Shown in pieces: positions 5,198-35,679 of a stretch of DNA of 38,300 nt. Position numbers and translations under genes: made by a program. Position 1 is the first letter of the stretch, and the number at the start of each line of letters is the position of its first letter. The DNA lies in the NCBI RefSeq assembly GCF_011320095.1, contig NZ_JAANOY010000019.1, positions 1 to 38,300 of the forward strand. Reading direction: 5' to 3'. The notes under the pieces were generated by a model. It saw only the letters and a program-made list of their open reading frames with translations. It ran no database searches and was not told the origin of the DNA. The stretch is from Cognatiluteimonas telluris (GTDB taxonomy: Bacteria; Pseudomonadota; Gammaproteobacteria; Xanthomonadales; Xanthomonadaceae).

Positions 5198-5587
5198 ATG
5201 TCGATTGCCTACTGGTGCATCCTGATCGCCGCGTTCCTGCCCTATGTCTGGGTGACGATCGCCAAGCAGTCGGGCCAGCGTTACGACAATCGCGATCCGC
5301 GCGGCTGGCAGGCACGCCAGGACAATCCGCGCAGCCAGCGCGCCAATGCGGCGCAGTTCAATGCCTTCGAAGCGTTCGCGCCGTTCGCCGCGGCGGTGCT
5401 GATGGCGCAGGCCGCGGGCGTGGATGCCGCCCGCATTTCGCAGCTGGCGATCGCATTCGTCGTCTTGCGCGTGCTGCACGGCGTGTTCTACATCCTCGGC
5501 ATCCACGCGTTGCGCAGCCTGGTGTGGTTCGGCGGCTTTGCGTGCGTGTTCTGGCTGATGGCGCAGGCGGCGCGGGCTATCGCCTGA
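5198..5587 (+). CDS. MAPEG family integral membrane protein
   Basis: The 129-residue product has four hydrophobic segments (about residues 3-21, 57-75, 78-98 and 104-128). It carries the MAPEG-style polar loop RYDNRDPRGW followed by RANAAQFNAFEAFAPFAAAV, with the Asn-Ala-x-Glu-x-Phe cluster of bacterial members. MAPEG proteins in eukaryotes are glutathione- or eicosanoid-linked membrane enzymes; bacterial ones mostly have unknown substrates. GGAG sits about 9 bases before the ATG. It is followed 16 bases later by the frameshifted gene at 5604, so the two may be co-transcribed. The family call rests on length, topology and the loop motif. Confidence 0.82.
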   Translation: MSIAYWCILIAAFLPYVWVTIAKQSGQRYDNRDPRGWQARQDNPRSQRANAAQFNAFEAFAPFAAAVLMAQAAGVDAARISQLAIAFVVLRVLHGVFYILGIHALRSLVWFGGFACVFWLMAQAARAIA

Positions 5588-5603
5588 CGCCTGTTTCCGC
5601 CGC

Positions 5604-6778
5604 ATGCGCAATCCAAAGCGACAAATCGCGCCCTGGGTGATTGCCGTGCTGTTGGCGATGGCCTGCGGGTCGCTCACCGAGCGCGTGACTGCCACCCATC
5701 TCGCGCCTGCAATCACGGCGTCGGCCTGGAAACCTGCCGCGCAGCGACGCGTGACCGCTTTGCGCCCGTTGCGTCCGGCGCCCGGGGTCGAGGATTCGGA
5801 CGTCGAGCCGCTTGTCGAGGCACAGCAGTTGCGTTGCGCGGACGCGTGGCGCGCCCGGCTGCGGCGACGGCGCGGGCAGATGGGTGTTCCGCGTACGCCG
5901 GACGATGCCTTCGAACATGCCCTGCTGACGATGCGGCTGTCGCTTTCGGCGCCGGAGGACGCCAGGCGCGAGTGACGGCAGCGCGCCAGCGCTGGCCTGC
6001 AAGCGTCGAACTGGCCTGGCTGGCGGCGATCCACTGTTCGGAAGGCGCGCAATGCACGGCAGCATGGCGCCACCTCGCGTTCCTCGAGCCCGACAACGCC
6101 GCGGTGTGGCTGCTGGCGATGGGGACCGCATTGCGCAAGCACGACCGGCCGGGTTACGAAGAAGCACTGCAGCGCGCCGCCGCCGCGCGCATCTTCGAGC
6201 CGCATCACGGCATGGTGTTCCTGCATGCGCGCGCGGCCATTGCGTCGTTGCCTATGCCGGCCAGCTGCCTGACTCCCCGCGCGCTTGCATCGATGCAAAA
6301 GAACTTCGGGCGGCCACCCACTGCCGCGGACTGGGCGGACTTCGACGCTGTCAATGCCGAATTCGCGTACGGCACCACCCCTGGTTACGGCGCGCTGAAG
6401 CCCTGCGGCGCGAGGTCCCACCCGTCCGGCACGGTGCGACACGACTGCATTGCCCTGCTGTCGCTGATTGCGACCGGCAATACGCTGTTTGACCAGAAAT
6501 TGGCCTGGCACATGTTGCTGGATCTCAGCCCCGGTGGCGCCGATGGCGTGCGTTATCGCGAACGCTGGCGACAGGTGTCATGGTTGACGCAGGAAATGTG
6601 GCTCCACCAGGGCATTCCCGCAGGCGAAATCACCCGGCAATGGACGCAGGGCGAAGTCGCCACGGTGCTGGCGCGCGCCATGGCGGAAGGGCATTGGCCG
6701 CCACCGCCGGGCTGGGAACCGGACGATGCGGCCGTCGTGCGTGCGCTGTCTGGCAGCGGGCCGCCGCCCGGACCCTAG
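5604..6778 (+). pseudogene. Exported hypothetical protein, interrupted by a one-base frameshift
   Basis: Two open segments look like one gene. The first (5604-5975) has an N-terminal hydrophobic segment (PWVIAVLLAMACG) and ends with a helical stretch ...SAPEDARRE and a TGA at 5973. The second continues in the -1 frame from about 5972 (TAARQRWPASVELAWLAAIHCSEG) to 6778, with TPR-like helical text (EPDNAAVWLLAMGTALRKHDRPGYEEALQRAAAA). Restoring one G after 5974 would turn the stop into TGG and fuse the frames into about 391 residues. No slippery heptamer is seen at the junction, so a deletion or a sequencing error is more likely than programmed frameshifting. Function is not recognised. The C-terminal part holds four cysteines and many tryptophans, consistent with an exported protein. 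Confidence 0.65.
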
Positions 6779-6832
6779 CCAACGCGTTGGCCGGCGATGG
6801 GCCGGCCTGGCGCTCGCCCCGCGCGCCGGGCC

Positions 6833-6854
6833 GTAGCCCGGGCAAGCGCAGCGC
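6833..6854 (+). repeat. REP unit, left member of an inverted pair
   Basis: A 22-base element starts with GTAGCCCGGGC and ends AAGCGCAGCGC. It is repeated in inverted orientation at 6966-6987 with one mismatch. The head-outward pair (GTAG...CTAC) sits in the convergent gap between the frameshifted gene and tyrS. Confidence 0.75.
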
Positions 6855-6965
6855 CGCCTGGGCTGTCGCAGGCGCGGGATTCGTGTGCGCTCCGCAGCGC
6901 GCCTGCTCGAGATCACGGTGAGCCTGGCGCGCAAGCAATGCTCCGGGATTGCAGCCGCCCCGGGT

Positions 6966-6987
6966 GCGCTGCGATTGCCCGGGCTAC
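6966..6987 (-). repeat. REP unit, right member of pair, overlapping the tyrS stop codon
   Basis: On the minus strand this reads GTAGCCCGGGC then AATCGCAGCGC, 21 of 22 bases identical to the plus-strand unit at 6833. Its GTAG head contains the TAG stop codon of tyrS (6986-6984). Together the pair can fold into a long cruciform or act as a bidirectional transcription barrier. Confidence 0.75.
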
Positions 6988-8252
6988 GGGGTCGCGGTGA
7001 CCAGCCGCACCCGGGCGAAGTTGCGCTTGCCGATCGCCAGGACGCCGGTGAAGCCGGGCAGGAACACGCGTTGCGCGTCCTCGACGATCTCGCCGTCGAT
7101 CCGCACCGAGCGCTCCTTGAGCTTGCGGTTGGCTTCCGAGTTGCTCGGCGTCAGGCCGGCGGCGGTCAGCAATGCGGCGATGCGCAGGCCTTCGGCCGGC
7201 ACCGCGACGTCGGTGAGCGGCAGCGTTGCGGTGTCGCCTTCGCCACGCACCGCGGCGTTCCAGCCGGCAACGGCGTTGTCCGCGGCCGCCTCGCCATGGA
7301 AGCGCGCCGCCAGTTCGCGCGCCAGGCGCAACTTGACGTCGCGCGGATTGCGGCCGGCATCGACCTGCGCGCGCAGCGTTGTCGCCTCGGCCGCGTCGAT
7401 GTCGAAACTGAGCAGCTCGATCCAGCGCCACATCAGCGCGTCGCCGATCTTCATCGTCTTGGTGACGATGTCGATCGCCGGCTCGTCGATGCCGATGTAG
7501 TTGCCCAGCGACTTGGACATCTTCTGCACGCCGTCCAGGCCTTCGAGCAGCGGCATCGTCAGCACGATCTGCGGCTTCTGGCCGAAGTGTTCCTGCAGCC
7601 CGCGTCCCATCAGCAGGTTGAACTTCTGGTCGGTGCCGCCGAGCTCGACGTCGGCCTGCAATGCGACCGAGTCGTAGCCCTGCACCAGCGGATACAAAAA
7701 CTCGTGCAGCGCGATCGACTGCTGCGCTGCATAGCGCTTGGCGAAGTCGTCGCGCTCGAGCATGCGCGCCACCGTGTGCTGCGCGGCCAGCCGCACCATG
7801 TCGGCGGCGGTCATGGCGTCGAACCATTCGGAGTTGAACCGCACCTCGGTACGCGCGCGGTCGAGCACCTTGAACACCTGCTCGGCGTAGGTGCGCGCGT
7901 TGGCGGCGATGTCCTCGCGGGTGAGCGGCCTGCGGGTGGCGTTCTTGCCGGTCGGGTCCCCGATCATCCCGGTGAAGTCGCCGATCAGGAAGATGACCTG
8001 GTGTCCGAGGTCCTGGAACTGGCGCAGCTTGTTGAGCAGCACCGTGTGGCCCAGGTGCAGGTCCGGCGCGGTCGGGTCGAAGCCGGCCTTGATCCGCAGC
8101 GGGCGGCCCCCGGCGCCCATTGAAGCTGCCAGCCGCGCCCGCAGTTCGTCGGGCTTGAGGATCTCGTCGGCCCCACGGCCGATGCGGGCGATGGCCTCGT
8201 CGATGACGGTGGGGTCCGGACTGCGGCCCTGGGCCGGGGTGAACGCTGGCAC
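6984..8252 (-). CDS. tyrS: Tyrosyl-tRNA synthetase
   Basis: This enzyme charges tRNA-Tyr with tyrosine. The 422-residue product is a class I synthetase: HLGH (residues 66-69) is the HIGH signature after GFDPTAPD, and KMSKS is intact at 244-248. [18 protein letters not shown] is the tyrosine/ATP pocket, and an S4 RNA-binding domain occupies about residues 355-420. HLGH and total length suggest the TyrZ-like subgroup rather than E. coli TyrS. The start is GTG with GGAA about 8 bases upstream; no in-frame ATG lies near. The stop codon lies inside a REP unit. It is transcribed divergently from the mepM-like gene. Confidence 0.96.
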
Positions 8253-8310
8253 GTGTCTGGTTCCTGCGGGCGGTCGCGCGCGTTGCGTGACCGTCGTCGT
8301 GAAGTTGACG

Positions 8311-8325
8311 TTAACCTCAAGTTAA
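8311..8325. promoter_or_regulatory. Short inverted repeat resembling a MerR/SoxR half-site
   Basis: TTAACCTCAAGTTAA lies between divergent tyrS and mepM. Its core ACCTCAAGTTAA equals the left half and centre of the enteric SoxR box, but the right half does not continue the dyad (3 of 7 matches). It may be an operator for an unknown regulator or chance. Confidence 0.2.
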
Positions 8326-8361
8326 ATGCGGGGCTGGGAAAAACCCAATGCGTTCAAGGGT

Positions 8362-8390
8362 TTGACGCGCACTTTTCGCGCCACTATGGT
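8362..8390 (+). promoter_or_regulatory. Sigma-70-type promoter of the mepM-like gene
   Basis: TTGACG (8362-8367), a 17-base spacer and TATGGT (8385-8390) form a well-spaced promoter. The predicted transcript starts near 8397, about 35 bases before the ATG at 8432. Confidence 0.7.
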
Positions 8391-8431
8391 ACCCGCTTGA
8401 CGTGCCCATCACGTCGGCGAGAGATCCCCCG

Positions 8432-9871
8432 ATGAGCCCATCGCAAGCAGATCGCAACGAGAGCAGCCAGACACGGCGTGCGCGCCTGGAGAAGCTACGC
8501 GAAGCCGTGCTGCACCGGAAGGTGCTGGCCAAGCGCCTGCCGGGCGCCTTCAACGGCCGCTGGACGCGACGGCACTGGGCGCACGCGAGCCTGTTCGCGA
8601 CCCTGGGCGCGCTGGTGGCCGCGATCGTCCCGGGCTTCTCGGTCCCGCTGCCGTCCCCGGCGCTGGCCCAGCGCACGACCATGGCGCTGGCGCTGCCGTC
8701 GCTGCCGCTGGCGCAGCTGCGCAGCCGGCCCGGCGACAGCTGGCAGCTGGTGACGGTGCAGTCGGGCCAGACCGCGGCGTCGATCTTCGACCAGTTCGAC
8801 ATTCCCGCCGCCACGTTGCACCGCCTGCTTGCGCAGCCGGCCGCCCGCGACGCCCTCACCCATCTCAAACCCGGTAGCGTCCTGGGCCTGGACCTGCCGG
8901 TCGGCGCGGACGGGCAACCCGGCGAACTGCGCACGCTGCGTTTCGATCGCGACCCCACCCATCGCGTCGAGCTGTCGCTGCAGGGCGACGAGGTGCAGGC
9001 ACACGTGATCGAGCGCCCGACCGAAGTGCGCACGGTGGTGCTCAGCGGCCAGGTCGGCCGCTCGCTCTACCACTCGGCACGCAAGCTCGGGCTGTCGGCG
9101 AAGAACATCAACACGCTCACCGACGACATCTTCAAGTACGACATCGACTTCAACGACGACGTCGGCGCCAACGACCGCTTCAGCGTCGTGGTCGACGAGA
9201 TGTGGCGCGACGGCGAGCTGGTCGGCACCGGTCCGGTGCAGGCGGCGACGTTCACCGTCGGCGGCAAGCTGTACTCGGGCTTCCGGTTCGAGCACGACGG
9301 CAAGGCCGAGTACTACAGCGCCGACGGCCGCCCGCTCAAGCGCAGCTTCATCCGCATGCCGATCCCCTACGCGCGGCTGACGTCGACCTTCGGCAAGCGC
9401 TACCACCCGATCCTGGGCCGCATGCGCATGCACGAGGGCGTGGACTTCGCCGCGTCCACCGGCACGCCGATCCAGGCCGCGGGCGACGCGCGCGTGCAGT
9501 TCGTCGGCTGGAAGGGCGGTTACGGCCGGGTGGTCATCCTCGACCACGGCCACGGTTACACCACCCTCTACGGCCACATGTCGCGCTTCGGCAAGGAGCA
9601 CGTCGGCCAGCGCATCGCGCAGGGCACCGTGATCGGCTACGTCGGCATGACCGGGCTGGCCACCGGCCCGCACCTGCATTACGAATTCCGCGTCAACGGC
9701 GTGCACCGCAATCCGCTGTCGATCACGATGCCGCCGCCCGAGCCGCTGCGCGGCCTGGCGCTGGCGCAGTTCCGCGCCCAGACCGGCACCGCGCTGGCGA
9801 AGATCCGCAAGGTCGAGGATGTGATCTATGCCGATGCGACGCCGGTGACCAAGGGCCGCAAGAAGGCCTGA
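8432..9871 (+). CDS. mepM: M23 family murein DD-endopeptidase, MepM-like
   Basis: MepM-type enzymes cleave D-Ala-mDAP cross-bridges to let new murein strands in. The 479-residue product has a basic N-terminus with one membrane anchor (about residues 48-70). An OapA/LysM-like region follows around 105-160 (LVTVQSGQTAASIFDQFDI). A second conserved block contains SLYHSARKLGLS and FKYDIDFNDDV. The C-terminal LytM domain has the zinc ligands His334 and Asp338 (HEGVD) and the HLH pair His414/His416, so it should be catalytically active, unlike EnvC. GCGAGAG lies upstream of the chosen ATG; an upstream in-frame ATG at 8402 lacks one. The gene has its own promoter and is followed by the hairpin mosaic before anmK. 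Confidence 0.92.
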   Translation: MSPSQADRNESSQTRRARLEKLREAVLHRKVLAKRLPGAFNGRWTRRHWAHASLFATLGALVAAIVPGFSVPLPSPALAQRTTMALALPSLPLAQLRSRPGDSWQLVTVQSGQTAASIFDQFDIPAATLHRLLAQPAARDALTHLKPGSVLGLDLPVGADGQPGELRTLRFDRDPTHRVELSLQGDEVQAHVIERPTEVRTVVLSGQVGRSLYHSARKLGLSAKNINTLTDDIFKYDIDFNDDVGANDRFSVVVDEMWRDGELVGTGPVQAATFTVGGKLYSGFRFEHDGKAEYYSADGRPLKRSFIRMPIPYARLTSTFGKRYHPILGRMRMHEGVDFAASTGTPIQAAGDARVQFVGWKGGYGRVVILDHGHGYTTLYGHMSRFGKEHVGQRIAQGTVIGYVGMTGLATGPHLHYEFRVNGVHRNPLSITMPPPEPLRGLALAQFRAQTGTALAKIRKVEDVIYADATPVTKGRKKA

Positions 9872-9946
9872 TCACGAACCCAACCCGGTGCGTGCGCTTC
9901 TGCTTTCCGGTTACAAGCCGGCGACGAAGGATGCAGACCCGGAGGG

Positions 9947-10002
9947 CGTCGCACAGGATGTGCGACGTTTTCCGACCGAGCCATGGATGGCGAGTCGGAA
10001 AA
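9947..10002. repeat. Two abutting perfect palindromes
   Basis: CGTCGCACA-GGA-TGTGCGACG (9947-9967) is followed without a gap by TTTTCCGAC (9968-9976), whose complement GTCGGAAAA lies at 9994-10002. The second hairpin has a 17-base loop. Confidence 0.75.
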
Positions 10003-10059
10003 TCACCTTGACACCCGCTAGGCGAGTGCGCCGTGATCGGGGAAGGCTGCTTTCTTTTG

Positions 10060-10095
10060 GTTACTTTTCTTTGCAGCCTTTCAAAGAAAAGTAAC
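10060..10095. repeat. 14-base-stem inverted repeat with A/T-rich arms
   Basis: GTTACTTTTCTTTG (10060-10073), an 8-base loop and its exact complement (10082-10095). An overlapping alternative pairing exists between AAGGCTGC (10043-10050) and GCAGCCTT (10073-10080). A small TCGCC-GAA-GGCGA hairpin follows at 10096-10108. No long T-run follows either arm. Confidence 0.75.
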
Positions 10096-10153
10096 TCGCC
10101 GAAGGCGAAAGCGGTTGATGTTTGCATTCCATCCCGAAACACAAAGACGCTGG

Positions 10154-10173
10154 ATCCCAGCTTTCGCTGGGAT
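10154..10173. repeat. Small hairpin repeat, ATCCCAGC-TTTC-GCTGGGAT
   Basis: This perfect 8-base stem is followed by GACG. A related unit at 10303-10317 (CCCGC-CTTC-GCGGG, then AATGACG) has the same loop style and tail, so the two look like members of one dispersed repeat family. Confidence 0.65.
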
Positions 10174-10272
10174 GACGGGCAGAACGATGGCTCACCGCTT
10201 GGCGGGGAAGACGAGCCAAAAACGATTGAAGACGAAGACGCTGGACGCGATGATGTCGCGACACCAGAGTCG

Positions 10273-10317
10273 CTGGATGGTCAGCCATCCAGCTGCCGAA
10301 ATCCCCGCCTTCGCGGG
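10273..10317. repeat. Hairpin pair upstream of anmK
   Basis: CTGGATGG-TCAG-CCATCCAG (10273-10292) is a perfect 8-base stem. CCCGC-CTTC-GCGGG (10304-10317) follows 11 bases later and ends about 28 bases before the anmK start, so it lies in the probable 5-prime leader. Confidence 0.65.
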
Positions 10318-10345
10318 AATGACGAGCGAAGGTAATCCGCGCACG

Positions 10346-11500
10346 ATGCCCAAGTTCGATCAGGAACACCTCTTTCTCGGCCTGATCTCCGGCACCAGCG
10401 CCGATGGCATCGATGCCGCGCTGGTGCGGTTTGCCGATGGCGGCGAACACGCGCGCTGCGCGCTTGTCGCCGGTCGCACCTCGCCCTGGGACGGCGCATT
10501 GCGCGCACGCCTGGTGGACCTGGGCCAGGGCGGCGACTGCACCTCGCTGGACGAATACGGCAGCCTGGACGTGCAGGTGGCGCACGCCTTCGCCGATGCC
10601 GCGTTGGCACTATTGAGCGAGAACGGCATCGCGCCGGGCGCGGTCCGCGCGATCGGCTCGCATGGCCAGACCGTGCGCCACCGGCCCGAGGCGGCCCATC
10701 CGTTCACGCTGCAGATCGGCGACGGCGACGTCATCGCCGAACGCACCGGCATCACCACGGTCGCCGATTTCCGCCGCCGCGACGTCGCCGCCGGTGGCCA
10801 TGGCGCGCCGTTGCTGCCGGCCTTGCACGCCGCACTGTTGTCCGCGCCCGGGGAGTCGCGCGCGGTGCTCAACCTGGGCGGGATCGCCAACCTGACGTTG
10901 CTGCCGCGTGCGGGGACCGGCGCGACGGCGATGGATCGCGCCGTGCGCGGCTTCGATACCGGGCCGGCCAACGCCCTGCTCGATGCCTGGTGCCTGCGCC
11001 ATACCGGTGCCGCGTTCGACGCCGACGGTGCGTTCGCCGCCAGCGGCCAGGTCGACGACGCCCTGCTCGCTGCGCTGCTGGACGAGTCGTGGTTCGCGCT
11101 GCCGCCGCCGAAGAGCACCGGCCGCGAGCAGTTCCACCTGCGATGGCTGCAGGCGCGCCTGGGCGACACCGCGCGCGCGCCGCAGGACGTGCAGGCGACG
11201 CTGCTCGAACTCACCGCCGCCAGTGTCGCCAACGCGTTGTTCGCGACCCAGCCGGATACCAACCGCGTGCTCGCCTGCGGCGGCGGCGTGCACAATCCGC
11301 AGCTGCTGGCGCGGATCGCCGCGCGCCTGCCGGGGGTGGTGGTCGAGTCGACCGCGCGCTACGGCGTGGATCCGGACTTCGTGGAGGCCATGGGCTTTGC
11401 CTGGCTGGCGCGGCAGACCCTCGCCGGCCGCGCGGGCAACCTGCCGGCGGTCACCGGCGCGCGTGGGCCGCGCATCCTCGGCGCGATCCACCTGGCCTGA
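10346..11500 (+). CDS. anmK: Anhydro-N-acetylmuramic acid kinase
   Basis: AnmK phosphorylates 1,6-anhydro-MurNAc from recycled murein to MurNAc-6-phosphate, which MurQ then converts toward GlcNAc-6-P. The 384-residue product carries the family motifs in order: [15 protein letters not shown] near the N-terminus (ATP loop), [52 protein letters not shown], and a C-terminal [11 protein letters not shown] and [17 protein letters not shown] chose the Met of MPKFDQEH because the frame upstream runs through the hairpin repeats. A copy of AmpG, the transporter that supplies its substrate, lies 0.4 kb away on the other strand. Confidence 0.95.
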
Positions 11501-11509
11501 GCGTGCGGG

Positions 11510-11818
11510 CTATTTCAGTTCGAAGTCGTCGCTGATCGACTGGTCGGGTTGCGCGGGTTCGGGCTTGGGCGGCACCGCGCGCCCGATCAGCGCGAAGCCC
11601 GGGTCGCTGGGCACCTGCTCCAGCGCCTGGATCGCCGCCTGCAGCACACTGGCCTCGTGGTCGGCCAGGCGCACCGCGCCATCGACTTCGCATTCGTGGA
11701 GGCCGCGCTCGAGGATGCGCATCAGCGTCCCGGGCATGTCCCAGCCGTGCGCGTCGGCCAGCCGCTGGATGCGCTCGGCCAGGATCGGATCGATGTCACG
11801 CAGCACGATGTCGGTCAT
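11510..11818 (-). CDS. Small ribbon-helix-helix-like protein
   Basis: The 102-residue product begins MTDIVLRDIDPILAERIQRL followed by a helical ADAHGWDMPGTLMRILERG. This beta-strand-helix-helix layout is like FitA/Arc-type RHH DNA-binding domains. The rest is an acidic helix (HEASVLQAAIQALEQV) and a Pro-rich, probably disordered tail ending DDFELK. GGAGG precedes the chosen ATG by about 9 bases. No toxin partner is adjacent, so I do not call a toxin-antitoxin pair. It is the last gene of the xthA-ampG run and ends 9 bases from the convergent anmK stop. Role unknown; an RHH regulator is an inference from fold-like pattern only. Confidence 0.7.
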   Translation of the reverse strand: MTDIVLRDIDPILAERIQRLADAHGWDMPGTLMRILERGLHECEVDGAVRLADHEASVLQAAIQALEQVPSDPGFALIGRAVPPKPEPAQPDQSISDDFELK

Positions 11819-11857
11819 CCGGCGGCCCTCCGGCGCCCGCATCTGCGGGGCGGCGGC

Positions 11858-11866
11858 AATCTAGCA
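11858..11866 (-). promoter_or_regulatory. Possible extended -10 promoter for RHH-like gene
   Basis: On the minus strand TGC directly precedes TAGATT, an extended -10 pattern, about 40 bases before the ATG at 11818. There is no -35 match, as is acceptable for extended -10 promoters. It would let the small gene be expressed apart from ampG. Confidence 0.35.
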
Positions 11867-11906
11867 CTGTCGCTGCATTGGCCCCGCATGGGATGCCCGG
11901 TCCGGC

Positions 11907-13265
11907 TCAAGCCGGCGCCGCCGCCAGCCGCTCGCGCCGCTCGTGCCGCAGCAGCCACAGCACCAGCACCAGCGACGGCAGCCCGATGACGGCGGTATAG
12001 ACGAAGAACGGCGGGTAGCCCCAGGCGTCCACGATCCGGCCCCACTGGCTGGCGATGGTCTTGGCCGGCAGGCTCCACAGGGTGCCGAACAGCGCGTACT
12101 GGGTCGCGGTGTAGGCGGTGTTGGTCAGCGACGACATGTAGGCGATGAACGCGGTGCCGGCGATGCCGTTGGCGACGTTGTCGGCGCTGACCGCGGTCGC
12201 CAGCCAGGCGATGCCGGGATGGATGCTGGCGATGTGCGCGTAGACGAGATTGGCGATCGTCAGCAGCACCCAGCCCACCAGCAGCGTGCGCGCGATGCCG
12301 TAGCGGCGGATCAGCAGGCCCGCGGCCAACGCGCCGACCATGGTCATGATCACGCCGTAGATCTTCGACACCAGCGCGATCTGGTCCAGGGTGAAGCCCA
12401 TGTCCAGGTAGAAGGTGTTGGCCGCCACGCCCATGGTCGTGTAGTTCAGGCGATAGGTGGCGATCAGCAGCAGGATGGGCAACCCCACGCGCAGGCCGTT
12501 GCGCGAGAAGAAATCCACGAACGGGCACACGATCGCGCCGATCAGCCACGCCACCGCATGCCGCAGCGGCGCCGGCCAGTGCCGGCTGCGCTCGAGGAAG
12601 GCAGTGACGCGCGCTTCCTGCGCCAGCGTCGCGCGATCGATGCGCGTCGTCGGCTCGGCGATCACGAACGTGGTGACGATGCCGACCGCCACGCAGCCGG
12701 CCATGATCAGGTAGGCCACGTGCCAGCCGTAACCGGCCGCCGAGGCCAGCGCGCCGGCGCCGGCGCAGATCAGCGCGACCTGGTAGCCGATCTGGTAGGC
12801 CGCCGCCATCGCGCCCTGCGATTCGACCGCCGCCGCCTCGATGCGATAGGCATCGATGGCGATGTCCTGGGTTGAAGACATCAACGCGGTGAACACCGCC
12901 AGCCAGGCGACGCGTTCGGCGTCGACCGACGGATCGGCCATCGCCATCAACACCAGCCCGGCGGCGATGCCGCACTGCGCCAGCAGCATCCAGCTGCGCC
13001 GGCGCCCGAGCCGCTGCAGCCCCGGCAGCGGCAGGCGGTCGACGATCGGCGACCAGAAATATTTCAGCGAATACGCAAGCCCCACCAGGCTGAAGTAACC
13101 GATCGTGGTGCGGTCGATGCCGGCCTGGCGCAGGCGGGCGGACAAAGTCGTCAGCACCAGCGGAAACGGCAGCCCGGACGAGAAGCCCAGGAACAGCATC
13201 GCGCGCACGCGCGGATCGGCGTAGACATCCAGCGATTTCCACCACGCACGCAACGCCGCGATCAT
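11907..13265 (-). CDS. ampG: AmpG-type muropeptide permease (MFS)
   Basis: AmpG imports GlcNAc-anhydroMurNAc peptides released by lytic transglycosylases into the cytoplasm for recycling. The 452-residue product has about twelve or more membrane segments. It shows the AmpG signatures near the N-terminus: FLGFSSGLPFPLVLTTLSARLRQAGI, then TTIGYFSLVGLAYSLKYFWSPIVDR and the MFS loop LGRRRSWML. STQDIAIDAYRIE in the fourth helix is also characteristic. The ATG overlaps the xthA stop as ATGA, implying translational coupling. Substrate assignment follows family knowledge and the nearby anmK; a related MFS permease for another solute cannot be excluded but is unlikely. Confidence 0.93.
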   Translation of the reverse strand: MIAALRAWWKSLDVYADPRVRAMLFLGFSSGLPFPLVLTTLSARLRQAGIDRTTIGYFSLVGLAYSLKYFWSPIVDRLPLPGLQRLGRRRSWMLLAQCGIAAGLVLMAMADPSVDAERVAWLAVFTALMSSTQDIAIDAYRIEAAAVESQGAMAAAYQIGYQVALICAGAGALASAAGYGWHVAYLIMAGCVAVGIVTTFVIAEPTTRIDRATLAQEARVTAFLERSRHWPAPLRHAVAWLIGAIVCPFVDFFSRNGLRVGLPILLLIATYRLNYTTMGVAANTFYLDMGFTLDQIALVSKIYGVIMTMVGALAAGLLIRRYGIARTLLVGWVLLTIANLVYAHIASIHPGIAWLATAVSADNVANGIAGTAFIAYMSSLTNTAYTATQYALFGTLWSLPAKTIASQWGRIVDAWGYPPFFVYTAVIGLPSLVLVLWLLRHERRERLAAAPA

Positions 13266-14077
13266 GCCGACCACCCCGGCAGCGCGTAGTCCACCCAGTA
13301 CGGCGCATGGTCGGAGAAGCGTGGCGAGGGCGCGATGCCGCAACCGGCCAGCCGCGCGCGCAGCGACGGGGTCGCCAGCTGGTAGTCGATGCGCCAGCCG
13401 ACGTCCTTCGCGCGCGCGGCGCCGCGGTTGCTCCACCAGGTGTAGTCCTGGCCTTCGGGATGCAACGCACGGTAGGTGTCGACCCAGCCATCGGCGCCAC
13501 CGTCGGCCTCTGCGCACAGGCCGTTGAGCCAGTCGCGCTCGGCCGGCAGGCAGCCGGAATTCTTCTGGTTGGATTTCCAGTTGCGGATGTCCAGCGCGCT
13601 GCGGACGATGTTCCAGTCCCCGCACAGGACGTAGTCGCGGCCGCTGCGGGCCCACTGCTCCAGGGTCGGCCTCAGCCAGTCCATCACCTCGAACTTGAAG
13701 CCCTGCCGCAGTTCGCCCGACGAGCCCGACGGCACGTACATCGACACCACGCTGAGATTGCCGAAGCGCGCCTCGATATAGCGGCCTTCCTCGTCGAACG
13801 CGTCCCAACCGAGCGCGGTGTGCACCGCGTCGGGCTCGCGGCGGGCGTAGATCGCGACGCCGCTGTAGCCCTTCTTGGTGCTCGCATCGCGGAACCAGGC
13901 CTTGTAGCCGTCGGGGCAGCAGCCGTTCTTCGCGCCAGCCTCGCCGCTGAGCTGGTGCTCCTGCGCCTTGGTCTCCTGCACGCACAGCACGTCCGCGTCC
14001 TGTCCTGCGAACCAGTCGAAGAAACCCTTGCTGGCGGCCGACCGCAGGCCATTGGCGTTGAAGGTGACGATGCGCAT
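13262..14077 (-). CDS. xthA: Exodeoxyribonuclease III
   Basis: This AP endonuclease/3-prime exonuclease of base-excision repair is 271 residues, the usual length. EEP-fold motifs are intact: FNANGLRS at the start, the metal Glu35 in VQETKAQE, GYSGVAIYAR, MYVPSG, CGDWNIVRSALDIRN, TWWSNRG with WRIDYQL, and SDHAPYWVDY with the catalytic His. The chosen ATG (MRIVTFN) gives the canonical N-terminus. It is divergent from the GNAT gene at 14144 and overlaps ampG by four bases; a shared message is likely though the functions are unrelated. Confidence 0.95.
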   Translation of the reverse strand: MRIVTFNANGLRSAASKGFFDWFAGQDADVLCVQETKAQEHQLSGEAGAKNGCCPDGYKAWFRDASTKKGYSGVAIYARREPDAVHTALGWDAFDEEGRYIEARFGNLSVVSMYVPSGSSGELRQGFKFEVMDWLRPTLEQWARSGRDYVLCGDWNIVRSALDIRNWKSNQKNSGCLPAERDWLNGLCAEADGGADGWVDTYRALHPEGQDYTWWSNRGAARAKDVGWRIDYQLATPSLRARLAGCGIAPSPRFSDHAPYWVDYALPGWSA

Positions 14078-28268: not shown

Positions 28269-28673
28269 TCAACCGCGCCAGCGACGCCATCCCAGCCAGG
28301 CCAGCAGCAGCGTCACGAGCCACGCCAGCACGATCACCGCGGCGGCGATCCGGCTCACCGGACGCGCGGCCGTCGCGGCGGCCTGCAGCCGCGCGTCGAT
28401 CAGGACCAGCGATGGCGCCCATCGGATCACCAGCGCCACGCCCAGCGGCACCAGCACCAGGTCGTCGAGGTAGCCCAGCACCGGGATGAAATCCGGGACC
28501 AGGTCGATCGGGCTCAGCGCGTAGGCCGCGACCGCAAGCGCAAGCAGCCGCACGCCCCATGGCAGGCGTGGATCGCGGGCGGCGTAATAGACCACCAGCG
28601 CATCGCGGCGCAAGGCATGCAGTCGCCGTCCCCACGCCTGGCGTATCCGCGCCAGCCGCTGGCGCAGGCGCAC
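28269..28673 (-). CDS. DUF1232 (YkvA) family membrane protein
   Basis: The product (134 residues from GTG) contains the DUF1232 core: YYAARDPRLPWGVRLLALAVAAYALSPIDLVPDFIPVLGYLDDL. A hydrophobic C-terminal segment (ISRIAAAVIVLAWLVTLLLAWLGWRRWRG-like) follows, probably a membrane anchor. DUF1232 proteins are widespread and of unknown function. The start is uncertain: the GTG at 28673 has no clear ribosome site, and a TTG nine or more codons later is possible. It follows the PEBP gene by 56 bases on the same strand, and precedes the autotransporter by 70 bases. A second, soluble DUF1232 protein is at 31431. Confidence 0.8.
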   Translation of the reverse strand: MRLRQRLARIRQAWGRRLHALRRDALVVYYAARDPRLPWGVRLLALAVAAYALSPIDLVPDFIPVLGYLDDLVLVPLGVALVIRWAPSLVLIDARLQAAATAARPVSRIAAAVIVLAWLVTLLLAWLGWRRWRG

Positions 28674-30532: not shown

Positions 30533-31345
30533 CTAGTCCGGCTGCGCCATGGCGGCGACGATGCGTTCGCGCGCGCACTCGGCGATGCCGCGGCGGCCTT
30601 CGACATCGCTGGCCAGGATCGGCGCGAGGAAGTGCACTTCCACCCGTCGTGCCGGCTCGCCGAGCAGGCGCAGGAAATTGCCGAGGAAATGTTCGCCCGG
30701 CTGGAATGCCACCCGCGCCTGCGCGTCGCCGCCGGGACCGTAGCGCAGCGCGACCGGTTGCACCGGGGCGCCCGACTCCACCGCCGCCAGGAAGATCCGC
30801 GCGTGGAAGGGCCCGACCTGGGTGCCGTCGCGGGTGCGGCCTTCGGGGAACACCCCCACCGAGTGCCCGCCACGCAGGCGCGCGAGCATCGCCTGCAGCA
30901 CGCCGCCCAGTGACTCGGTGTTGCCGCGCTGGTGGAAGATCGTCTGCGCGCGCGCGGCCATCCAGCCGACCACCGGCCAGCTGGCGATCTCGCGCTTGGC
31001 CACGAAGCCCATCATCTTCTGGCTGTGCAACAGCACGATGTCGGCCCAGGTGACGTGGTTGGCGACGAACATCGTCGCCACCTCCAGCGGCGCGCCGATG
31101 CGCACGATGCGGAAGCCGAACACCCGCAGCAGCCCGCGCGACCACGCCCGGATCAGGCGCTCCTCCAGCCGCATGCCGCCCACCTGCAGGCCGGCGGTCA
31201 GCGGCGTGATCAGCAGCACCGTCAGCGGCAGCATCACCAGCACGTGCCACAGCAGCCAGGGCACGCGCAGCGTGTAGCGCAGCGCGCGCGCGATGGCGCT
31301 GCCCGCCGCGGCACGGGCGACGGCGGGCTTGGACGGATCGGTCAT
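30533..31345 (-). CDS. 1-acyl-sn-glycerol-3-phosphate acyltransferase-like (PlsC family)
   Basis: The 270-residue product has an N-terminal membrane segment (WLLWHVLVMLPLTVLLITPL) and PlsC motifs: NHVTWAD (H-x4-D catalytic pair), VGWMAARAQTIFHQRGN, VGVFPEGRTRDG and VQPVALRYGPGG. It should acylate lysophosphatidate or a related lysolipid at the inner membrane. The chosen ATG has AGGA 6 bases upstream; an open frame of 50 further codons lacks homology. It precedes the YheT hydrolase by three bases. Whether it is the essential PlsC or a paralogue cannot be told. Confidence 0.87.
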   Translation of the reverse strand: MTDPSKPAVARAAAGSAIARALRYTLRVPWLLWHVLVMLPLTVLLITPLTAGLQVGGMRLEERLIRAWSRGLLRVFGFRIVRIGAPLEVATMFVANHVTWADIVLLHSQKMMGFVAKREIASWPVVGWMAARAQTIFHQRGNTESLGGVLQAMLARLRGGHSVGVFPEGRTRDGTQVGPFHARIFLAAVESGAPVQPVALRYGPGGDAQARVAFQPGEHFLGNFLRLLGEPARRVEVHFLAPILASDVEGRRGIAECARERIVAAMAQPD

Positions 31346-31430
31346 GGAGTCCTTGGGAACACGGCCATGGCGCGGCAGCGGCAGCCGCGATGACGGGCGG
31401 AGCGGGCGGCCGGCACGGGGCCGTGGCCGA

Positions 31431-32042
31431 TCAGCGGAAGGTGAACAGCCCCGGGCGCCAGGCGCGCGTGTAGGTCCGCGAGGACCCGTAGCCACTGGAC
31501 TTGCCGTAGCCCACGCCCATGTCGCGCTCGCGGCGCTCGTGCATGCGCTCGGTGAGTTCCTCGCGGCGTCCGGCGAGCCAGTCGGCGCGGCCGACCTTGT
31601 CCGCCTCCAGCCCGCGGCGCTGCGCCCCGTGCGCGCGGAAATCGCAGAAGTCGTCGTAGGCGTCGATCTCGTGCTTGAGCTCGCGCACCGACAACTCGAT
31701 CATCACCGCGTCGTCGAGGAAGCCCAGCACTTGCACGTGGTCGGGGATCACGTCCTCGGGATCGCAAAAGTACACCAGTGCCGACAGCACGCGGTCCTTG
31801 TCCTCCTCGCTCATCGCCCAGGCTTCGTCGCGCACCATCGCGATCATGTCGTCCAGGCGCAGCAGGCGCTCGAGGATGAAATCGGGGATCCGCACCTTCT
31901 GCGCATCGACCAGCAACTGCGCGGCGCAGTCGATGATTTCCTTCGCGCTCTTGCCCTCGGCCGCCTTCTTCGACTTGGCCATGGCCTCATGGAAATGCGC
32001 GAGGTCCTGGTCGTTGAGTTCGAAGTTGAGCGAGATCGACAT
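31431..32042 (-). CDS. DUF1232 protein with a GYG/SSGY C-terminal motif
   Basis: The 203-residue product is soluble and helical at first (residues 1-75), then has the DUF1232 core in a less hydrophobic form: ALVYFCDPEDVIPDHVQVLGFLDDAVMIELSV. A charged helix rich in Arg/Glu follows (residues 140-170). The last 33 residues carry ERDMGVGYGKSSGYG then SSRTYTRAW, ending LFTFR. That tail is shared almost exactly with the 71-residue protein at 32712 and has no counterpart in the DUF1232 protein at 28269. Function unknown. It lies 86 bases upstream of the acyltransferase on the same strand. Confidence 0.85.
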   Translation of the reverse strand: MSISLNFELNDQDLAHFHEAMAKSKKAAEGKSAKEIIDCAAQLLVDAQKVRIPDFILERLLRLDDMIAMVRDEAWAMSEEDKDRVLSALVYFCDPEDVIPDHVQVLGFLDDAVMIELSVRELKHEIDAYDDFCDFRAHGAQRRGLEADKVGRADWLAGRREELTERMHERRERDMGVGYGKSSGYGSSRTYTRAWRPGLFTFR

Positions 32043-32171
32043 GGCGGATCCGTGCGGTGGCGAGAGTGGAACGCGCAGACTAGGGGCGCGGGCGGCGGTG
32101 CGTCAATCGACGCCGGGGCCGGGCGTCAGCGCAGGACAACGAAGGCGGCGGCCCCCTTCGGCCACCATCGC

Positions 32172-32621
32172 TCACGGCGCGCGGCGCGCCACCACGGCCA
32201 GGGTCAGGCGCGAGATGCAGACCAGCCGCCCGGCGGCGTCCTCGATGCGGATCTCCCACACCTGGGTGCTGCGACCGACATGCAGCGGCCGGGCGGTCCC
32301 GGTCACGATGCCATCGCGGACCGCGGCCAGGTGGTTGGCGTTGATCTCCAGCCCGACGCACAACGCGTCGTCGTCGACGCACAGGTTGCCGGCGCTGCTG
32401 CCCAGCGTCTCGGCGAGCAGCACCGAGGCGCCGCCATGCAGCAGGCCGTATGGCTGGTGGGTGCGGGCATCGACCGGCATCGTGCCGCGCACGTAGTCCG
32501 GTCCGAGCTCGGTGAAGCGGATCCCCAGCTGCTCCATCGCGGTGCCGCGCGACAGCGCGTTGAGCGCCTCCAGCGTGGCGCTGCGGCGGAACAGGCGCGA
32601 ATGGCGGGCGGGCTCGGTCAT
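32172..32621 (-). CDS. Hotdog-fold thioesterase (YdiI/PaaI group)
   Basis: The 149-residue product matches acyl-CoA thioesterases of the hotdog fold. GLLHGGASVLLAETLGS contains His62-Gly-Gly and the catalytic Glu71 as in YdiI/MenI-type enzymes. VGLEINANHLAAVRDGIVTGTARPLHVGRSTQVWEI follows, typical of the fold. MenI hydrolyses 1,4-dihydroxy-2-naphthoyl-CoA, but paralogues act on other acyl- or aryl-CoAs, so the substrate is open. It sits between two genes that share the GYG/SSGY motif but lacks the motif itself. Confidence 0.9.
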   Translation of the reverse strand: MTEPARHSRLFRRSATLEALNALSRGTAMEQLGIRFTELGPDYVRGTMPVDARTHQPYGLLHGGASVLLAETLGSSAGNLCVDDDALCVGLEINANHLAAVRDGIVTGTARPLHVGRSTQVWEIRIEDAAGRLVCISRLTLAVVARRAP

Positions 32622-32711
32622 CGGGCCACGATACCGGACGCTCCGGCGACCGGCACGGCGGGGGTCATCGCAATGCCGGTCGCCTTCGCGGCCCGCCTTG
32701 GGCTCGGGGAC

Positions 32712-32927
32712 TCAGACGCAGCGGAAGCGGGGCTGGCCGTTCCAGGCACTGGCATAGCGGCGTGGGCTGGCGTAACCGCTGCTGCGGCCGTAGCCGATGC
32801 CGAAATCCCGCTCCACGTACTCGCGCCGGGCCAGTTCCGGCAGCGCCCGGGCGACTGGCGCCGGACGCGGGATCGAGGTCTGGAACGGCGAGCGGAACGG
32901 GAAGATCGAACGCGGCGGGGTGTTCAT
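32712..32927 (-). CDS. 71-residue protein with a C-terminal GYG/SSGY motif
   Basis: The first 35 residues are Pro/Arg-rich and probably disordered (IFPFRSPFQTSIPRPAPVAR). Residues 39-61 read ERDFGIGYGRSSGY then ASPRRYASAW, followed by a short basic end PRFRCV. This block aligns with the C-terminus of the DUF1232 protein at 31431 with 16 identities in 23 positions. A perfect-type AGGAGG ribosome site lies 6 bases before the ATG, and a dyad at 32960-32979 lies in the leader or promoter, so this is a real gene despite its size. No known family is recognised. Confidence 0.82.
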   Translation of the reverse strand: MNTPPRSIFPFRSPFQTSIPRPAPVARALPELARREYVERDFGIGYGRSSGYASPRRYASAWNGQPRFRCV

Positions 32928-32959
32928 GACAGCCTCCTGGGTGGCCTCGGTGACTCGGT

Positions 32960-32979
32960 GTGTTGGTAAAGTACAACAC
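32960..32979. promoter_or_regulatory. Operator-like dyad GTGTTG-N8-CAACAC
   Basis: A perfect 6-base inverted repeat around GTAAAGTA, 33 to 52 bases before the ATG of the 71-residue gene, in an unusually AT-rich patch. Its position is right for an operator overlapping a promoter, though no clear -10/-35 pair is seen. Confidence 0.45.
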
Positions 32980-33072
32980 CAAATCGACCTCGGCATGGGC
33001 CGGAAGTCACCCTCGTGGAAAAAGGGGTTCGCACCGTTGCGGCGCATCGCGTACGTCACGCGCAGGGGGTCT

Positions 33073-33110
33073 CAACCCGCCTTCCGCGGGTTGCGGGCCA
33101 GTCGCCCTAC
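33073..33110 (-). repeat. GTAG-headed REP-like element overlapping the phospholipase stop
   Basis: On the minus strand GTAG (33110-33107) holds the TAG stop of the phospholipase D gene and is followed by GGCGAC. A perfect 8-base hairpin CAACCCGC-CTTCC-GCGGGTTG lies at 33073-33093. Layout resembles the units at 6966 and 18555. Confidence 0.6.
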
Positions 33111-35086
33111 AGCACCGGTGCGAACCCCGCGCCGAAGGCGGTGAACATCCGTGTCATCAGGGTCTTGAAGCCGAGGTTGACCTCGGGGAAATCGCCGACG
33201 GGGCGGTAGCAGCGATGGAAGGCGTCATCCCCGGGCGGCAGCGGCGCGGGGCAGTCGGGGCCGGGCTGGAATTCGTAATCGGTGGCGTAGCGCACCGGCC
33301 ACAGGTCGAAGATCGGCATCCGCTCGGACAACTTCGCCAGCGAATACTCCAGTCCGGAGAACACCGGCGCCTTGGCCCGTGGCGCCGACACCCAGCTGTT
33401 GGCCGGCGAGGTGTCGCGGCGGATGCTGTCCGCCAGTTCGGCGGCGAACGCCGGGTCGTGCACCACCACCGCGCTCTCGGTGTTGTAGCGGTCCCCGCGC
33501 GGGTCGAAGTTGTGGGTGCCGACCACGCCCACGCGCTCGTCGACCACCAGCGACTTGGCATGCAGGCCGATGCGCACGCCGGCACGCTGCAGCGGAACCC
33601 GCTCCAGGTTGCGCCGACGCGCGGCGAGCGCGGCGTATTCGCTCTGCAGCGGGCGCCGGTAGTGGCCGACCACGGACCCCTGGTCGCGTTCGCGGCGCGC
33701 GCGACGGGCACGCACTTCGCGTTCGCGCGCCTGCGACAGGTCCTCGTCGCTCGGCAGCGCGATGGTCGGCAGCGCCGCGCCGGTCGCCGCCAGGTCGATC
33801 GGCGCATCGGCCGGGAACGGCTTGTACTCGTAGATCCAGAAGCCGAAGTCGCGCAGGTAGCGACGCTTGTACTTGTAGGCCAGCGCGTAGGTGATGAACG
33901 AGTCGGTCGATGCCAGGCTGTTGGTGGACACGATCACCCGCGGCGGCGAGGCGCGGCGGCGCATCTGCCGGAACAATTGCTGCGCCGGTTTCGACAGCAC
34001 CAGGTAGGGCGTCTGCAGCAGCACTTCGCTCCGTGCGCCGTCGATCAGCGCGCGCAGGCCTTCGGACGCGCGCGCCGGGCCCTGGTGGGACTCACTGTGC
34101 TTCTGCGGCAGGTCGGCCAGGTAATCGACCGCGCCCACCGCCAGCGCATGGTCGGTGAGCCGCGCGCGCACCAGGGCGTCGTCGTCGGCGTCGCGCGACA
34201 TCGCCGCCACCCGTTGCGGCTGCTCCGCCGGCGGATGCGACACTGCCGGCGGCGGGCCGTGCAGCAGGCGCCGGCCGACATCGGACAGCTGCTCGGCCGG
34301 ACGGCTGCGCACATTGGCCCAGAAGTCCTCGAAATTGCCGCCCATCGCCAGCGCGACCGGCCCGGCCACCAGCACGTCGCGATCGCGGAAGTCGTAGTCC
34401 GGCGACCAGTCGTAATAGTCGTCGGCATAGTTGCGCCCGCCGGCGATGCCGACCGCATCGTCGACCAGCAGCAGCTTGGTGTGCATGCGCTGGTTGAGCG
34501 CATGCCAGCAGCATGCCGACGCCAGCAGGTATTGCGGGTAGTTGATCCGCGCCCGGCCAAGCACCGGGTTGTAGATGCGGATGGAGAAGTTGGCGTGCGC
34601 GGTGGCGAGCGCGGCCAGGGTGTCGACGCGCTTGAGCGCGGACAGCTGGTCGATCAGCAGCCGCACGCGCACGCCGCGGCGCGCGGCCTTGAGCAGTTCG
34701 TCCAGCACCAGGTGGCCGGCGTCATCCTCGTCGAAGATGTAGGTCTGCAGGTCGATCGAGGTGGTCGCGCTGCGGATCAGCGCGATCCGCGCCAGCATCG
34801 CGTCCGGGCCGCGGTCGAGCAGCAGCACGTAATGGCGTGGCGCTTCGGCGCTGCTTTCGGCGAACGCGCGCGTCGCCAGCGCATGCAGCGACGATGGCTG
34901 CGCGCAGGCATCGGCGCGATCGCAGTCCAGCGCGGTGGAACGCGCGGCGGTGGCGACCGCCTCGGCGCGCGTGCGCTGCGCGGGCGAGAGCGTGGTGCAG
35001 GCGCTGGCGGCCAGCGCCAGCATCGCGACGGCGAGCAGGCGCCAGTGTCGCGGACGCGCCTGGAACAGAAATCGTCCCGCCGTCAT
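33107..35086 (-). CDS. Phospholipase D-family lipoprotein, ClsC-like
   Basis: The 659-residue product has a lipobox (LALAASAC, about residue 29), so it is envelope-anchored. It carries two HKD motifs: HTKLLLVDDAVGIAGGRN (about residue 202) and HAKSLVVDERVGVVGTHN (about 508), both with His, Lys and Asp intact. Such enzymes are cardiolipin synthases (ClsC-like) or phosphatidyl-transferring PLDs. The C-terminal 100 residues (YRPVGDFPEVNLGFKTLMTRM) are extra to the HKD core. Its ATG overlaps the YceI stop as ATGA. The stop codon lies in a REP-like unit. Activity is inferred from motifs; the phospholipid substrate is unknown. Confidence 0.88.
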   Translation of the reverse strand: MTAGRFLFQARPRHWRLLAVAMLALAASACTTLSPAQRTRAEAVATAARSTALDCDRADACAQPSSLHALATRAFAESSAEAPRHYVLLLDRGPDAMLARIALIRSATTSIDLQTYIFDEDDAGHLVLDELLKAARRGVRVRLLIDQLSALKRVDTLAALATAHANFSIRIYNPVLGRARINYPQYLLASACCWHALNQRMHTKLLLVDDAVGIAGGRNYADDYYDWSPDYDFRDRDVLVAGPVALAMGGNFEDFWANVRSRPAEQLSDVGRRLLHGPPPAVSHPPAEQPQRVAAMSRDADDDALVRARLTDHALAVGAVDYLADLPQKHSESHQGPARASEGLRALIDGARSEVLLQTPYLVLSKPAQQLFRQMRRRASPPRVIVSTNSLASTDSFITYALAYKYKRRYLRDFGFWIYEYKPFPADAPIDLAATGAALPTIALPSDEDLSQAREREVRARRARRERDQGSVVGHYRRPLQSEYAALAARRRNLERVPLQRAGVRIGLHAKSLVVDERVGVVGTHNFDPRGDRYNTESAVVVHDPAFAAELADSIRRDTSPANSWVSAPRAKAPVFSGLEYSLAKLSERMPIFDLWPVRYATDYEFQPGPDCPAPLPPGDDAFHRCYRPVGDFPEVNLGFKTLMTRMFTAFGAGFAPVL

Positions 35087-35679
35087 CCCTGGCCCCGCAC
35101 GCGCACCCGCAACGAGAACAGCACCCGATCGGACACCGCGAAGTTCCAGCGGTCCATGCCGAAGTCGCCGCGGTGGATGCTGCCGCTGGCGATGACGTCG
35201 CACTCGCGCGCCGGATGTTCGCAGCTGGCCGGAAGGATCGTGAACACCTCGCGCCGACGCACGTCGCGGATCGTCAGCATGCCCGGCAGCTCACCGCCGC
35301 TGCGCAGCAGCTGCGACGGATACGCGTCGGAAACGAAGTCGATGCGGGGGAAGCGTTCGGCATCGAAGAAGCCGCTGCCGCGGGTCAGCCGGGTGTAGGA
35401 CGGATGCCCGAGGATCTCCACCGTGCGCGTGGACAGCTGCAGGCGGACCTGGTGGCGGCCGTCGGGCAGTTCGTCGACCGTGCCGCGCGCATCGGGAAAG
35501 CTTCCCTGCAGCGCCTGGCCCCAGCGCGTGTGCAGGGTGAACCCGATCTGCGAGGCGACCGGGTCGATCTCCACCGCCAGCGCGCAGGCGGCGAGCAGCG
35601 CGATCGCCGTCCCTGCCGTCCATGTGCGCCATGCCTGCCGCGTGCAGCGCTGCCGTTGCGCCCGCGCCGCCGCGGTCAC
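35083..35679 (-). CDS. YceI family periplasmic lipid-binding protein
   Basis: The 198-residue product has a signal sequence (TWTAGTAIALLAACALAVE) and the YceI lipocalin-like fold: VASQIGFTLHTRWGQALQGSFPDARGTVD, EILGHPSYTRLTRGSGFFDAERFPRIDF, and a C-terminal FGMDRWNFAVSDRVLFSLRVRV. YceI proteins bind isoprenoid quinones or similar lipids in a beta-barrel. A lipid carrier next to a lipid-headgroup enzyme is a reasonable pair. The start is a GTG overlapping the sixA TGA as GTGA; the ATG alternatives upstream lie inside sixA. The stop overlaps the phospholipase start. GDFGMDRWNF near the end is the family hallmark. Confidence 0.87.
   Translation of the reverse strand: MTAAARAQRQRCTRQAWRTWTAGTAIALLAACALAVEIDPVASQIGFTLHTRWGQALQGSFPDARGTVDELPDGRHQVRLQLSTRTVEILGHPSYTRLTRGSGFFDAERFPRIDFVSDAYPSQLLRSGGELPGMLTIRDVRRREVFTILPASCEHPARECDVIASGSIHRGDFGMDRWNFAVSDRVLFSLRVRVRGQG

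Follow-up and report, generated by a model that had tools for sequence, protein, structure and literature searches.

A C-terminal module conserved on two main carriers across one bacterial family, and a promoter type common to the small carrier's gene and an RND pump operon

Introduction

In Cognatiluteimonas telluris, a DUF1232 protein of 203 residues and a nearby protein of 71 residues end in closely similar blocks of amino acids. Both are encoded in the stretch of 38,300 nucleotides analysed here (contig NZ_JAANOY010000019.1, positions 1 to 38,300; hereafter the window). What could the same C-terminal block be doing on two otherwise different proteins? An earlier note, made from the window alone, had proposed a docking, sorting or degradation tag recognised by one partner, with the short protein as a carrier of the tag alone. 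Below, we follow the block through the family, examine the promoters of its carriers and weigh the explanations for it. The features of the locus are collected in Table 1.

Table 1. Features of the locus (window coordinates).
Feature	Position	Strand	Evidence
Acyltransferase gene, downstream	30533..31348	-	Below curated cut-offs; order conserved
DUF1232 protein gene, with the same module	31431..32042	-	PF06803, 34.3 bits against a Pfam gathering cut-off of 23; orthologues in 106/297 genomes
C-terminal module of the DUF1232 protein, residues E172-R203	31434..31529	-	Sequence comparison; low AlphaFold2 confidence
Separate promoter-like sequence of the DUF1232 gene, TTGACG-N18-TAGTCT	32077..32106	-	Window sequence; TTGAC kept in 15/16 upstream stretches read
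Hotdog-fold thioesterase gene, between both tail genes	32172..32621	-	TIGR00369; order conserved
Small tail protein gene, 71 residues	32712..32927	-	ATG at 32927 with AGGAGG ahead; module and promoter conserved in relatives
C-terminal module of the small protein, residues E39-V71	32715..32813	-	Sequence comparison
24-bp promoter element GGTGTTGTACTTTACCAACACACC, with -10-like hexamer	32957..32980	-	0 mismatches; strongly conserved in relatives
Upstream block TGACTTCCGGCCCATG	32994..33009	-	Sequence; conserved upstream of the element
Phospholipase-D / cardiolipin-synthase-like gene, upstream	33107..35089	-	Below curated cut-offs; order conserved

The shared block in the window

Compared at full length by BLASTP (one single comparison), the two proteins give a single segment (E 9e-11), in which residues 39-62 of the small protein are aligned without gaps to residues 172-195 of the DUF1232 protein. 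The 16 identities counted in the earlier note are recovered, over 24 aligned positions instead of 23, both open reading frames lie where it had placed them, and its remark that the two proteins have nothing else in common agrees with the lone segment. The codons differ at 8 of the 16 identical residues, as had also been noted, and the DUF1232 open reading frame at 28269 does end without the block (in LLLAWLGWRRWRG).

Long open frames are frequent in this DNA, so that a chance likeness between the ends of two GC-rich frames had to be considered; its probability is negligible, and four lines of evidence refute it. The Smith-Waterman score of the tail pair is 95, while 20,000 shuffles gave a mean of 23, a maximum of 57 and no score reaching 95. 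Among the 53,628 pairs of tails from the open reading frames of the window, non-genes included, the pair ranks first, with the runner-up at 67. When the 2.86-Mb genome was searched by tblastn with the small tail, no place other than these two was listed (E 6.9e-7 for the second). Finally, the block is conserved across the family, as shown below. The score is hence not that of random tails, nor is the motif confined to two proteins of one strain.

Taxonomic distribution of the module and its carriers

A scan of named genomes for the small protein returned 54 loci, whose titles belong to the Lysobacteraceae (Lysobacter, Luteimonas, Thermomonas, Arenimonas, Aquimonas, one Xanthomonas MAG and others), except for some MAGs placed only at a higher level and one record labelled Rhizobium. 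Since this first scan selects for the core peptide, whole genomes were then searched with a profile built from 32 tails, which matched 192 of the 297 family genomes (41 of 54 genera). In the sample of the order, 16 of 200 genomes had a match, 12 of them from the same family and four from two sister families, while among 369 genomes of the class nothing convincing was found beyond the order: besides the window's genome there was one match only (15 positions, E 5e-4, in a 40-residue frame), which we take as chance. As for a mobile origin, the small protein had no match among phage and plasmid records, and of the viral contigs 37 stretches fit the core pattern, none of which was confirmed. Judged from these sequences, the shared block dates far back and has been conserved as a C-terminal module within one bacterial family.

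One of its two main carriers belongs to the DUF1232 / YkvA family (PF06803), but the tail lies outside the Pfam domain (residues 85-115) and is missing from the DUF1232 paralogues read, among which only L191 has a weakly similar end (RYAQTGAIPSKFGVR). Orthologues of the DUF1232 protein were called at E 1e-40 or better, and all the best matches listed extend to model position 200 at least, except in G279, where the match ends at 189. The tail profile matches 103 of the 106 genomes with an orthologue, where the match may sit in the small gene; in the other three (G033, G073, G252), the tail is recognisable by eye. The promoter-like sequence ahead of the DUF1232 gene is conserved as TTGAC...TAGKCT, and is unlike the promoter of the small gene; among the upstream stretches read, L116 retains the -10-like part only, and L183 has this part changed.

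The second carrier has hardly any sequence besides the tail. Among 152 distinct small proteins, picked by the core pattern and with start codons partly of our choosing, the length is 45-102 residues (median 63, mostly 45-81), and GxGYG stands 26-34 residues before the stop (28 in 116 of them). Their N-terminal part is variable, their C-terminal part conserved, and two or three copies frequently occur in tandem. This is the reverse of the order in RiPP precursor peptides, which have a conserved N-terminal leader and a variable C-terminal core, and this identification was discarded. Pfam, NCBIfam and PHROGs hold no match for the small protein.

Several loci depart from this picture. Short tail proteins with longer N-terminal parts and no promoter element found alongside are encoded at L174 (543-818; G078:C13) and L175 (595-843; G129:C1), and perhaps form a third class of carriers. 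Further small open reading frames adjoin tandem copies (L041 3590, L046 3367, L051 3555), the one in L046 having a TRFRIA-like end only, without the GYG core. In G011, an intact element is followed by a tail apparently split over two frames, like a decayed copy (L144, G011:C13:130500-132000); the same genome has a second element with a tail gene at C16 (L143).

When the small gene is counted per genome through its promoter element (see below), 59 of the 297 genomes have both the element and a DUF1232 orthologue, 87 the element only, 47 the DUF1232 orthologue only and 104 neither; a tail match with neither of the two is found in three genomes (G066, G149, G166). Both carriers thus occur together in only 59 genomes, and the module does not need both. 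The idea of a tag with a small carrier stands in part: the block keeps a near-fixed distance to the stop on unrelated bodies, and a protein with little beyond its tail may fairly be called a "carrier of the tag alone". As small proteins occur in 87 genomes without the DUF1232 protein, however, they are not merely its shadow.

The separate occurrence of the carriers would also fit plain homology: either the end of a DUF1232 gene gave rise to the small genes or the opposite happened, and the two proteins now have separate roles. That the two genes adjoin in the window and in several relatives, and that the tails end in a carrier-specific manner (mostly W-R-P in the DUF1232 proteins, F-R-x-x in many of the small proteins), speaks for such a history. 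Yet both carriers have kept the same core over 41 genera. This is suggestive of a constraint acting on both, and we regard separate present roles as unlikely.

In many loci, the order is PLD-like gene, small gene(s), thioesterase, acyltransferase and a further gene that, judged from its sequence, probably encodes an alpha/beta hydrolase. The DUF1232 gene follows the thioesterase gene, as in the window, or occupies the place of the small gene. In several Thermomonas-, Arenimonas- and Aquimonas-like loci, the small gene lies elsewhere with the same element ahead of it, which weakens the lipid-enzyme neighbours as an explanatory context.

Selection, composition and predicted structure

The earlier note had read the differing codons as a sign of selection at the protein level, and substitution rates bear this out: for the small proteins, dN/dS is about 0.37 over the tail but 0.78 over the N-terminal part (673 pairs, 55-93% identity), where only the contrast between the two parts counts, since the pairs are non-independent and GC bias affects both. 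A comparison over all pairs (ratio 0.6) was saturated, and the closer pairs were taken instead.

AlphaFold2 models the DUF1232 protein with seven helices (mean pLDDT 75.8) and a tail mostly below 50 (residues 177-192 and 200-203), and the small protein with no secondary structure (mean pLDDT 66, pTM 0.16); low confidence with shallow alignments is weak evidence for disorder. The last 33 residues of the small proteins contain 17.7% Arg, 15.0% Gly, 11.6% Ser and 9.5% Tyr, with Lys at 0.2%. The module is predicted to be a disordered segment of about 30 residues, in which Arg, Tyr, Gly and Ser abound and Lys is almost absent. That exact residues are kept although no fold is predicted speaks for a binding segment.

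With such a composition, nucleic-acid binding or self-association is conceivable too: the tail could act through Arg, Tyr, Gly and Ser "stickers", a physical property being common to the two carriers and no common partner needed. The extra Gly-Phe-Gly units that lengthen some DUF1232 tails ahead of the GYG core (L242, L246, L248) would suit this explanation. Arg/Gly/Tyr-rich low-complexity segments are known from eukaryotic RNA-binding proteins, and the tail is like them in its composition and in its aromatic residues spaced between Gly and Ser. It differs from them in being one fixed motif instead of a repeat array. Moreover, exact residues at fixed places across the family go beyond what composition requires, so that stickers as the whole explanation seem improbable, if well worth keeping in mind.

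A degradation signal that shortens the life of both proteins would agree with the C-terminal position and the predicted disorder, and ssrA-type tags are likewise short C-terminal sequences on different bodies. Most C-terminal degrons, however, use the last residues, whereas those of the tail vary widely and its conserved core lies about 28 residues inside; in contrast to the ssrA tag, the module is also genome-encoded and has two main bodies. It is hard to see, besides, why a protein would consist of almost nothing but a degron, and a degron is therefore very unlikely.

No family model or solved structure was found for the tail, nor any paper on the peptide core in the openly licensed literature, in line with the remark that no described motif matches. 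Searching solved structures with the tail profile gave only a 10-residue match (E 0.17) to two malonate semialdehyde decarboxylase sequences, and one of the 32 tails had a Fis1 TPR match (E 0.17); both are taken as chance.

The promoter of the small gene

Ahead of the small gene, or of the first one in an array, stands a conserved promoter architecture: TGACTTCCGGCMCATG upstream, a spacer of slightly variable length, then GGTGTTGTANNNTACCARCACACC. With up to 2 mismatches, the 24-bp element is found in 151 of the 297 genomes, and a backward control gives 0. Over 114 distinct sites at this threshold, 11 of the 24 positions are invariant, partly through site selection, and a C at position 28, beyond the pattern, is kept in 112. 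Five genomes were set aside, as their site precedes an adaptor gene (G009, G086, G112, G171) or another open reading frame (G120); 145 of the remaining 146 have a tail-profile match, and the last (G169) has a diverged tail frame behind its element. With up to 5 mismatches, a tail frame lies within 700 nt at 116 of 122 distinct sites, a count biased by the many loci fetched for their tail.

Six sites have no tail frame (L092, L099, L145, L146, L158, L169). The last four precede adaptor genes, and the L092 site, with 5 mismatches, is taken as chance. At L099 (about 1500; G120:C51), an element with 2 mismatches precedes a tail-less frame with a signal-peptide-like start, which may be either a third target or chance. 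From L005 to L088, all eight loci without the element carry the DUF1232 tail gene only. In the four loci from other families, an element-like sequence is present in L133 and L136, and the pattern has no match in L134 and L135.

Several known identities were compared with this promoter. An RNA hairpin is not supported: among 36 distinct elements, 23 can form pair 6-15 and 30 can form pair 5-16, and no clear compensation is seen, the outer pairs varying too little to be informative. The upstream block of the small gene, GGTGA-N6-GCCCA/GCACA, partly resembles the CRP/Clp binding site (TGTGA-N6-TCACA); the block of the adaptor gene, CATGA-N6-GCGGA, does not, and the adaptor promoters thus appear to weaken a CRP/Clp reading. 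In the window sequence inspected by eye, TGACTT has no TCTCA-like hexamer at 16-17 nt, and so does not form a sigma-E promoter, for which the excerpted text of PMC4229105 gives the consensus -35 GAACTT and -10 TCTCA. No paper on the promoter sequences was found in the openly licensed literature, and none was recognised there on the tail, the small gene or the promoter.

A twin promoter at an RND pump operon

At face value, the element might seem unique to the tail gene, but the 2-mismatch sites at the adaptor gene of relatives overturn this view. In the window's genome, the operon in question comprises an adaptor gene followed by two permease genes (L241, about 5466-13369), with the promoter at G000:C34:75976-76015. 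The adaptor, an RND periplasmic adaptor lipoprotein, is above the cut-off of TIGR01730; the two permeases fit models of RND permeases, NF033617 being the best (E 9e-209 and 4e-170), though below its curated cut-off. In each of 24 chosen genomes, the adaptor has a single match at E 1e-8, and in all 24 a version of the architecture can be seen by eye upstream of it, typically TGACCTTCGGCGGATGG then GGTGATATACCTACATACAACACC; the promoters of L195, L197 and L207 are diverged, and that of L200 was read from the translation. Around the -10-like hexamer, GGTG-N16-CACC is kept in the small-gene and adaptor promoters alike.

A joint pattern, TGACNNNNGGCNNATN{10,20}GTGNTNTA, gave 22 hits in 14 of 17 genomes and 1 in the backward control. 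By their coordinates, 11 hits lie at the small gene, 11 at the adaptor gene and 0 elsewhere; as the pattern was written from these very promoters, the finding is that little else matched. Both genes bear the strict pattern in only 8 of the 17 genomes, and 3 have none. Across the family, it matches 196 of the 297 genomes, mostly once or twice and at most three times among the rows looked over, with 4 backward hits counted; these are pattern matches not assigned gene by gene, and the one at G057:C15 looks like chance. Genomes without a tail match (G006, G017, G029) do have the adaptor promoter, from which the pump may be the older target of this promoter type. No regulator was seen beside the pump operon among the frames of at least 150 residues in 15.5 kb.

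The operon has the build of SmeIJK of Stenotrophomonas maltophilia, an adaptor gene followed by two RND permease genes (excerpts of PMC4229105), and by this gene order it is a putative orthologue. SmeIJK is tied to envelope integrity and membrane damage in the same excerpts, which propose for it a sigma-E promoter (GAACCT / TCTTA) and report no small tail gene. The architecture found here is a different one.

Discussion

In this family, then, a C-terminal module is conserved on two main carriers, and one promoter type precedes both the small gene and the pump operon. This promoter and its twin are the strongest clue to function. In our best reading, the small gene would encode a carrier of an interaction module, and its expression would be regulated together with that of an envelope pump. 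To the full proposal, in which the shared block is a C-terminal interaction module, carried in addition by regulated mini-proteins, with a common regulator, a common partner and a pump-linked role in the envelope, we give a probability of about 40%.

The proposed sequence of events would run as follows. The helical DUF1232 protein, under its own promoter, carries the module, of which the mini-proteins, presumably regulated, consist almost entirely. One regulator would control both the small gene and the pump operon by binding GGTG-N16-CACC across the -10; it would probably be a dimer that contacts both arms and overlaps the -10, and an activator site would lie upstream. In both carriers, the module would bind the same partner or assembly, and the mini-proteins would supply more of the bare module at times when the pump is needed as well, thereby occupying or redirecting this partner during envelope maintenance. 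The envelope role is suggested by the two-permease SmeIJK pump of S. maltophilia (PMC4229105, in excerpt). Competition of the mini-proteins with the DUF1232 protein as a general mechanism is contradicted by their separate occurrence.

Conserved small proteins of unknown function are an already known kind. As far as our searches reach, a family of tail-only proteins that have their module in common with a DUF1232 protein and their promoter type in common with an RND pump is undescribed. What was an anonymous open reading frame of 71 residues can now be placed in a family whose module and promoter are defined, as is an operon of the same promoter type. The reader of the module, the regulator of the promoter and the pairing of an envelope-linked type of RND pump with tail-only proteins can now be tested jointly, and so distinctive a promoter could itself be used as bait for the regulator. 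It is possible, if rather doubtful, that one regulator has a very small regulon, made of a two-permease RND envelope pump and tail-only mini-proteins; the module would then be a new functional domain, and the mini-proteins new effectors of envelope maintenance, which would give the bare module to the partner of the DUF1232 protein.
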